From a bacterium (GTDB taxonomy: Bacteria > Bacteroidota > Ignavibacteria > SZUA-365), in assembly GCA_020444325.1 (NCBI GenBank), contig JAHLLD010000001.1, forward strand, positions 248,001 through 312,000: a stretch of DNA of 64,000 nt. The letters run 5' to 3'. Made by a program: the position numbers and the translations under genes. The notes under the pieces are model-generated. The model was given only the letters and a program-made list of their open reading frames with translations. It made no database searches and was not told the origin of the DNA. Numbering within the stretch: position 1 is the first letter of the stretch; every line of letters starts with the position of its first letter. Positions 14,596 to 29,128 of the stretch are shown one piece after another.

Positions 14596-15405
14596 ATGAA
14601 ATCAAGAATGCTCCTGCTGTTTTCCACAATACTGTTTGTCTGCACCCTATCTCCTCAGCCTCTATTTGCTGCGGATAAGGCACAGGGAGATCCAGAAGAG
14701 GTGTTCAGGAAGTATGAGGTTGAGGGCTGCTTCGTTCTCTGTCCCATCGGCAGCGACGACTGCTTCCGCCTGAACGCCGAACGCTGCGGACAGCGGTTTA
14801 TTCCGGCATCCACCTTCAAAATCGTGAATTCGATGATTGCGCTGGAAACCGGCGCAGTCGAGAGTACGGAAGAAATTCTACCGTGGGACGGCACCGAGCA
14901 CTGGATCAAGTCGTGGAACCAGGACCAGGATATGGAGCATGCCTTTCAGCGCTCCTGCGTCTGGTTTTACCAGGAGCTTGCACGCCGCATCGGACAGGAG
15001 CGCATGGATCAATACCTCGCGAAAAGCAATTACGGGAATATGAGCACCGCCGGCGGTATTGATCGCTTCTGGCTGGATGGTGGACTGCTCATCTCTGCCG
15101 AAGAACAGATTGCGATGCTGCGCAGGCTCGATGCCGAAACGCTGCCCTTCGCAGCCGACGTACAGCGCACCGTCAAGCGGCTCATGGTACTCGAACGCGG
15201 CGATAACTACATCCTGTCCGGGAAAACCGGACTCGGGAAAAACGGCGAGGCCTGGGTGGGCTGGCTGGTCGGCTTCATCGAAAGCGGCGGCACGAAATAC
15301 TGCTACGCACTGAACATCGAATCCCCCGACATCACACTCAAGCAAATCGCCAGCCTCCGCCATACCGTCCTCCGCGACATCCTCACCGCCCGCGGACTAA
15401 TGTAG
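14596..15405 (+). CDS. Class D (OXA-type) beta-lactamase
   Basis: A signal peptide (LLFSTILFVCTLSPQPLFA) is followed by the complete class D motif set: serine nucleophile S72 and carbamylated-type K75 in STFK, S120-C-V122 (SxV), Y146-G-N148, and K210-T-G212, with WLDGGLLIS matching the family text between YGN and KTG. Length (269) is typical of OXA enzymes. It should hydrolyse penicillins in the periplasm; carbapenem activity cannot be predicted. It is probably intrinsic to the lineage: no integron, IS or other resistance gene is adjacent. The stop codon abuts a 19-bp tandem repeat array. Confidence 0.95.
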   Translation: MKSRMLLLFSTILFVCTLSPQPLFAADKAQGDPEEVFRKYEVEGCFVLCPIGSDDCFRLNAERCGQRFIPASTFKIVNSMIALETGAVESTEEILPWDGTEHWIKSWNQDQDMEHAFQRSCVWFYQELARRIGQERMDQYLAKSNYGNMSTAGGIDRFWLDGGLLISAEEQIAMLRRLDAETLPFAADVQRTVKRLMVLERGDNYILSGKTGLGKNGEAWVGWLVGFIESGGTKYCYALNIESPDITLKQIASLRHTVLRDILTARGLM

Positions 15406-15517
15406 GTGTTTCGCCTGCGGCGAGGTGTTTCGCCTGCGGCGAGGTGTTTCGCCTGCGGCGAGGTGTTTGCGCTGCGCGCAGGTGTTTCGCCTGCGGCGAG
15501 GTGTTTCGCCTGCGGCG
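15404..15517. repeat. Six 19-bp tandem repeats, block A
   Basis: Unit AGGTGTTTCGCCTGCGGCG, with copies starting at 15404, 15423, 15442, 15461 (variant), 15480 and 15499. Each copy holds a small palindrome CGCC-TGC-GGCG. The first copy overlaps the TAG stop of the beta-lactamase gene. There are no spacers, so it is not a CRISPR. All frames are open across it, which creates spurious repetitive reading frames. Confidence 0.92.
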
Positions 15518-15532
15518 AGTTCTTTGCGCTAC

Positions 15533-15549
15533 GTCCCGCTCCGCGGGAC
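15533..15549. repeat. Central hairpin between the two 19-bp repeat blocks
   Basis: GTCCCGC (15533-15539) and GCGGGAC (15543-15549) form a perfect 7-bp stem with a TCC loop. The flanking GCGC and GCGC can extend it. It lies midway between repeat blocks A and B. Confidence 0.7.
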
Positions 15550-15570
15550 TTCGCGCAGGTGTATCGATAA

Positions 15571-15684
15571 TACGCCGCGAAGCGGCAAGAACGCCGCGAA
15601 GCGGCAAGAACGCCGCGAAGCGGCAAGAACGTCGCGAAGCGGCAAGAACGCCGCGAAGCGGCAAAAACGCCGCGAAGCGGCACA
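15571..15684. repeat. Six 19-bp tandem repeats, block B (inverted relative of block A)
   Basis: Unit AACGCCGCGAAGCGGCAAG, with copies starting at 15571, 15590, 15609, 15628, 15647 and 15666 and few changes. Each copy is a hairpin GCCGC-GAA-GCGGC. The reverse complement of block A begins CGCCGCAGGCGAAACACCT, which resembles this unit, and the period is the same, so A and B form a large imperfect inverted repeat. Bases 15685-15758 up to the next gene hold nothing else I recognise. Confidence 0.92.
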
Positions 15685-15758: not shown

Positions 15759-16148
15759 ATGGTTCTGTTTTCCATCACGCTTGGCGTGGTACTTACTGCT
15801 CTTGGCGTTCTGGGGTATGGACTCTCAGGCGGCGAGAGCGTCACCGCCCTGATTCCCGCATTTTTCGGCATTCCCATTTTTGTGCTGGGACTGCTGGCAC
15901 GCAAGGAAAATCTGCGTAAACACATGATGCATGCCATTACGCTGCTGGCGTTGATCGGTTTTGCGGGGTCTGCCCGCGGACTCGGTTCCCTTATTGACAT
16001 GCTGGGCGGGAATGACGTTGCGCGTCCCCTGGCCACGGCCATGCAGAGTATCATGGCGCTGCTGACGCTCGCATTCGTCATTTTTGCGATCAAATCGTTC
16101 ATCGACGCACGCAGGCAGCGTGAGGTCGTGGCGGACCCGGGTAACTAA
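15759..16148 (+). CDS. Conserved hypothetical small membrane protein
   Basis: The 129 residues contain four predicted hydrophobic helices (about 4-25, 30-47, 57-76, 88-110) and a basic C-terminal tail. The second helix carries TALIPAFFGIPIFVLGLLAR and the third a glycine-rich GFAGSARGLG segment. I recognise it as a conserved bacterial hypothetical type but know no function. The DUF309 gene begins 1 bp after its stop, suggesting co-transcription. Confidence 0.75.
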   Translation: MVLFSITLGVVLTALGVLGYGLSGGESVTALIPAFFGIPIFVLGLLARKENLRKHMMHAITLLALIGFAGSARGLGSLIDMLGGNDVARPLATAMQSIMALLTLAFVIFAIKSFIDARRQREVVADPGN

Positions 16149-28919: not shown

Positions 28920-28928
28920 GGGGGAAAT

Positions 28929-29128
28929 TACAGATTACAGATTACAGATTACAAATTTCAGATTTCAGATTTCAGATTTCAGATTTCAAACCCGGGAGGA
29001 GCAGGGATTGCTTCCCACGGTGTGTCCCCGGATGCTTGTCGGCGTCGTGGAAGCAATCCCTGGTGTGACAGAGTGTGGACTACGAATCTGCAATCTGCAA
29101 TTTGCAATTTGAAATTTGAAATCAGCTG
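28929..29128. repeat. Composite short-period repeat element with internal hairpin
   Basis: The left flank has 7-bp repeats (GATTACA x3, then ATTTCAG x5, 28929-28988) and the right flank the opposite-strand type (AATCTGC x2, AATTTGC, AAATTTG x2, 29091-29122). In the centre CAGGGATTGCTTCC (29002-29015) pairs exactly with GGAAGCAATCCCTG (29049-29062). The whole fills the gap between two minus-strand genes and has no reading frame of its own. Confidence 0.88.

Follow-up and report, generated by a model that had tools for sequence, protein, structure and literature searches.

Tandem hairpin arrays behind a class D beta-lactamase gene and a lineage-specific family of intergenic C-GNA-G mini-hairpins

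Described hairpin repeats and the present array

The REP, BIME and REPIN elements with their RAYT transposases (PMC3116915, PMC3733652, PMC2817692) are short intergenic palindromes that show an inverted arrangement, tandem clusters and a lineage-specific distribution. The array described here, which lies behind a class D beta-lactamase gene in a stretch of 64,000 nucleotides that was analysed as a whole (the window), is alike in all of these respects. However, its stems are not conserved between hairpins and a fixed loop rule takes their place, the GTAG/CGTC format is absent, and no hairpins lie beside the sole Y1 transposase gene of the genome.

In their way of working, the repeats would be closest, by analogy, to the GC clusters of yeast mitochondria (PMC4478555), which are likewise GC-rich intergenic hairpins with merging and shuffling of modules and short direct repeats beside the insert. 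The 13-nt core of the yeast clusters, ACTCCTTCGGGGT, has a TTC triloop closed by a C-G pair, as in this family. The repetitive hairpin-forming elements of sponge mitochondria (PMC2800124) can be grouped with the GC clusters as a parallel of the same GC-rich, intergenic type. These elements belong to organelle genomes and have conserved stems and varying loops, whereas the loops are constrained and the stems vary here; nor do the parts of these sources considered here describe 19-bp tandem arrays with such a polarity.

The loop itself has a separate precedent. Very stable DNA mini-hairpins follow the C-GNA-G loop rule, GCGAAGC having a Tm of 78 C (PMC4686876), and the same loop is required for hairpin extrusion at phage N4 early promoters under physiological supercoiling (PMC4496689). 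The stem, the C-G closing pair and the GNA loop are shared with the present hairpins. In contrast, d(GCGAAGC) and the N4 hairpins are single synthetic or regulatory hairpins and not genomic arrays, and the likeness does not imply an RNA polymerase of the N4 type. No description of such arrays was found in the literature accessible without subscription.

Architecture and surroundings of the array

The array consists of two blocks of six 19-bp units each, as the sequence-only reading had proposed and as tandem-repeat search and copy listing bear out. On the plus strand, the left block (AGGTGTTTCGCCTGCGGCG) covers 15404-15517 and the right block (AACGCCGCGAAGCGGCAAG) covers 15571-15684; TRF delimits them as 15404-15519 (6.1 copies) and 15572-15682 (5.8 copies), both with a period of 19. 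In both blocks the unit comprises a 13-bp hairpin (stem 5, loop 3) and a 6-bp linker. The left block carries TCGCC-TGC-GGCGA at 15411, 15430, 15449, 15487 and 15506 and TGCGC-TGC-GCGCA at 15468, with the linker GGTGTT and TNC loops on the plus strand throughout. Copies 1-3, 5 and 6 are identical, and copy 4 departs from them by two changes that turn the stem TCGCC/GGCGA into TGCGC/GCGCA, each compensated on the opposite side. The right block carries GCCGC-GAA-GCGGC at 15574, 15593, 15612, 15631 (with one T-G pair), 15650 and 15669, with the linker AAGAAC and GNA loops on the plus strand throughout; none of its copies departs from the consensus in more than two bases, and each unit contains GCGAAGC. 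GCCGCGAAGCGGC has six matches in the window against 0.45 expected, a number reached in 0 of 100 shuffles, and CGCCTGCGGCGAGGTG has nine against 1.7 expected, a number reached in no shuffle. Judged by its bases, every focal hairpin of both blocks is a C-GNA-G mini-hairpin on one of its strands, with putative extrusion. A search against Rfam 15 gave no match above the gathering score in the window, and a peptide repeat in one frame was excluded since the period of 19 bp is not a multiple of three.

Between the blocks, the perfect hairpin GTCCCGC-TCC-GCGGGAC that had been proposed to separate them was found at 15533-15549, but a larger nested hairpin around it and an adjoining palindrome had been overlooked. 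The linker GTTCTT at 15519-15524 (plus strand) is the right-block AAGAAC on the other strand. It leads into the nested hairpin at 15525-15557 (plus strand), TGCGC-[TAC]-(GTCCCGC-TCC-GCGGGAC)-[TTC]-GCGCA, in which a loop-type triplet flanks the inner hairpin on both sides. Its outer stem is that of left copy 4, i.e. the uninterrupted form is present in the same array. The palindrome GGTGTAT-CGATA-ATACGCC at 15558-15576 (seven pairs, one of them T-G) adjoins the nested hairpin and marks the axis at which the hairpin orientation flips. The claim that the blocks are related by inversion holds for the pattern, as TNC loops with GT-rich linkers on the left face GNA loops with A-rich linkers on the right. 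It does not extend to the sequence: in its best rotation, the reverse-complemented left unit agrees with the right unit in 10 of 19 bases, against a shuffle mean of 9.9 (p = 0.62). As a whole, the array is an imperfect palindrome of opposed units.

The beta-lactamase gene (14596-15405, plus strand), a neighbour and not a part of the repeat, was assigned by NCBIfam NF012161 (260.5 bits, cut-off 250) and a Pfam Transpeptidase match. The first copy overlaps its stop, as noted earlier, beginning on the AG of TAG. On the right, the array is flanked by the gene of a conserved 129-aa protein (15759-16148, plus strand) with 73-79% identity to its syntenic counterparts and no Pfam or NCBIfam match. In relatives, this gene follows directly after the beta-lactamase gene, and the order M19 peptidase, beta-lactamase, 129-aa protein and DUF309 protein is kept. 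The gap between the two genes measures 353 bp here versus 74-130 bp in six syntenic relatives, none of which has a hairpin array between them. Together with the near-identical copies, this empty site bears out the suggestion that the array is young or homogenised. The stop context ATGTAG is common to a relative of the same genus (L077), and the left array edge is accordingly placed at the stop codon. The beta-lactamase proteins are only about 50-65% identical to those of the relatives, and therefore the empty site fits a one-step insertion and gradual growth alike. The flanks are too diverged to fix the exact array ends for a target-site duplication, and a possible 3-nt duplication is seen only at the nested hairpin. 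As a separate observation, the alignment of the beta-lactamase orthologue of the L077 genome (G001) is confined to residues 149-269, and its gene lies directly next to that of the M19 peptidase, which suggests a deletion there.

A dispersed family with loop, polarity and nesting rules

The family was surveyed in stretches totalling about 1.55 Mb of the 4.65-Mb genome (about a third), using home-made gene calls. In these stretches, at least 34 intergenic gaps contain two or more GC-rich hairpins with TNC/GNA triloops, and the hairpins are enriched in intergenic gaps. The hairpin of the focal array is also arranged in tandem at three or four other sites (C1:1-74, C5:126706-126861, C12:95420 and the end of contig C21), with linkers that differ (GGAGTT, GTGGTT) and are mostly uniform within one array. 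The same units were thus found elsewhere, as the sequence-only reading had proposed to check, and a genome devoid of related arrays is ruled out by these further sites. Two linker types occur, one resembling GGNGTT/GTTCTT as in the focal array and one of the form GCNNGAG.

Of 395 genomes of the phylum, only this one contains the exact tandem CGCCTGCGGCG-N8-CGCCTGCGGCG (0/394 others). A generic pattern for the first linker type gave 24 matches here versus 4 for the reversed control; in 148 other genomes of the class, its counts were close to background. For the second linker type there were 54 matches versus 3, and two genomes from another genus of the family hold a few true arrays; one of these genomes (L247) shows the 19-bp period and the TNC-then-GNA order of the focal array. 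These hairpins are a real, lineage-specific repeat family, in a variant that is defined by loop and linker while the stems vary. Other candidates were rejected: the matches of G026 to the generic pattern are repeated GGGGTTGGG..ACTTCGTCAC..GGGGGTT strings without a hairpin, two plasmid matches at 74% lie inside a Streptomyces pentapeptide-repeat gene and were taken as chance composition, and the composite GCGAGCGNAGCGAGC is not specific to this genome. A search of phages and viral contigs gave no match to the focal array.

Of the intergenic triloop hairpins, 112 of 294 in the surveyed stretches (84 of 192 on contig C1) have a TNC/GNA loop, compared with 20 of 131 from two relatives (Fisher, 1.5e-6). 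Since copies within arrays are not independent, this p-value and the one below for the polarity serve as guides only. The C-G pair closes the loop in 95 of 109 array hairpins versus 18 of 36 single hairpins. Of 14 informative arrays, 13 have the same polarity, with TNC on the left and GNA on the right (p = 0.0018). The stems are diverse, with 102 distinct stem-loops among 145 oriented hairpins, and the most common, TCGCC-TGC, occurs 14 times. A 2x2 internal mismatch is of the GA/GA type in 9 of 36 cases under a GNA apex versus 5 of 192 under other apices. Among 10 nested hairpins with gaps of 3 nt, 7 carry two gaps of one type, either GNA or TNC (6 of 9 after removal of a duplicate), and in all seven the inner hairpin is a GTYC...GRAC module of 17 nt with a stem of 7. 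GA/GA and GNA/GNA internal loops both fit sheared G-A pairing. A bias of wobble pairs towards either strand, meant to tell RNA from DNA, showed no clear enrichment in 24 near-perfect hairpins.

Several further repeats were observed alongside this family. A longer word, TCCGCC-GAA-...-GAA-GGCGGA, recurs with a variable interior as another nested, GNA-flanked hairpin (L008, L009; C1:135175, C1:492461). A second 19-bp hairpin array, GCGGGAGTGCCTGCGGCAC, lies at C2:1-236 (at least 12 copies), C18:6-108, C22:6-50 and the end of C9, and probably stems from a single long array, or a few of them, at which the assembly broke. The window also contains heptamer arrays at 28927-28988 and 29085-29123 (ATTTCAG in 8.9 copies, AATTTGCAATCTGA), and about 8 of the 48 contigs examined in this genome terminate in related heptamer arrays, AATCTGC/AGATTGC. 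Finally, a repeat of about 84 bp with a period of 33 shares the palindrome TATGCAGTTTCTGCATA and has otherwise differing spacers at C1:368057, C1:384483, C2:22284, C5:38517, C5:194349 and C12:59366; it may mark a binding site for a protein or constitute a separate repeat family.

Origin of the array

The array is probably a recently expanded member of this lineage-specific, intergenic, non-coding family of C-GNA-G mini-hairpins, REP-like in character and growing at the DNA level. Since the loops follow the rule of stable DNA hairpins and the GA/GA and GNA/GNA internal loops fit sheared pairing, the repeats are taken to act as DNA. A GC-rich module would accumulate between genes, as REP/BIME repeats or yeast mitochondrial GC clusters do, and hairpins or cruciforms would form in the cell on single-stranded or supercoiled DNA, on the strand with GNA. 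Hairpin formation on this strand may help the 19-bp units to slip or to exchange unequally, by which the array would grow and be homogenised. The TNC-left/GNA-right polarity is not predicted from slippage alone and counts against this explanation. The array may have arrived by insertion, and insertion into hairpin loops might add to its growth. A bolder reading of this last step would make the element a mobile bacterial hairpin of a new kind that travels in single-stranded form, inserts into GNA loops with duplication of the triplet, and builds polar arrays and nested trees between genes, which we regard as a rather unlikely conjecture.

On our preferred reading, the array looks like self-expanding DNA and not like a device of the beta-lactamase gene. 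The sequence-only reading had suggested that its stem-loops might affect mRNA stability or termination, and a functional 3' element, with RNA stem-loops that terminate transcription or block 3' exonucleases in both directions, would suit the start of the array at the stop codon, the opposed polarity of its halves and its strong folding (z-scores from -3.7 to -5.6, with -5.6 for the sense-strand RNA). One GTTCTTT linker also creates a terminator-like site at 15505. However, terminator-like sites with a stem and a following U tract are at background (4 versus 2.0 in shuffles, one of the four being in the array), in the GGTGTTT linker the three T come only four bases past the stem, and T runs are lacking in the second linker family, GCNNGAG. 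Moreover, arrays were found in all gene orientations, the orthologous beta-lactamase genes are without one, and the triloops belong to the DNA-stable type, whereas a 4-nt spacer is preferred among bacterial inverted repeats generally (PMC13155455). This role has no specific support and appears unlikely; termination or mRNA protection may be a side effect, and the position behind the beta-lactamase gene is probably incidental.

About equally unlikely is a spread of the family through the 17-bp module (GTYC...GRAC) inserting into the loop of an existing C-GNA-G hairpin with duplication of the 3-nt loop, driven by some machinery that would act on single-stranded DNA. The matched gaps of the nested hairpins and the uninterrupted outer form in the focal array would agree with this. 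Nevertheless, such cases are few, no enzyme for loop insertion was found, and matching GNA/GNA gaps could equally have been kept as sheared G-A internal loops, which would make insertion unnecessary.

A REP/REPIN family mobilised by a REP-associated tyrosine transposase is improbable as well. Intergenic palindromes and inverted doublets of the REP/REPIN kind are present, REPINs also form tandem clusters (PMC3116915), and the genome has a single-copy Y1 (HUH) transposase-like gene (Y1_Tnp) at C4:174891-175436 (L045, L060; about 181 aa). However, no hairpins of the TNC/GNA family lie within about 0.5-0.9 kb on either side of this gene, and the diverse stems contrast with the conserved palindrome of REP families. 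There is no GTAG tag, nor does the CGTC format with stems of 8-9 bp and loops of 4-5 nt (PMC3733652) apply, as the hairpin feet here are GGNGTT, GTTCTT or GCNNGAG linkers and the focal stems and loops measure 5-7 and 3. An artefact of metagenome-type assembly is highly improbable: with 10 of 48 contig ends in such arrays, the assembly seems unable to resolve them, so that copy numbers would be lower bounds, but the focal array lies inside a 711-kb contig between unique flanks with matches in relatives, its unit variants are ordered, and related arrays occur at several sites and in another genome of the family.

Bacterial palindromic repeats are usually grouped by their stems, whereas loop and linker define this family, and its loops follow the rule that the most stable known DNA hairpins obey. 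If the DNA-level reading is confirmed, the family would provide a natural test set for whether intergenic palindromes arise, nest and expand through DNA hairpins or through RNA stem-loops, and it might shed light on why a high load of inverted repeats is reported in the related Chlorobiota (PMC13155455).
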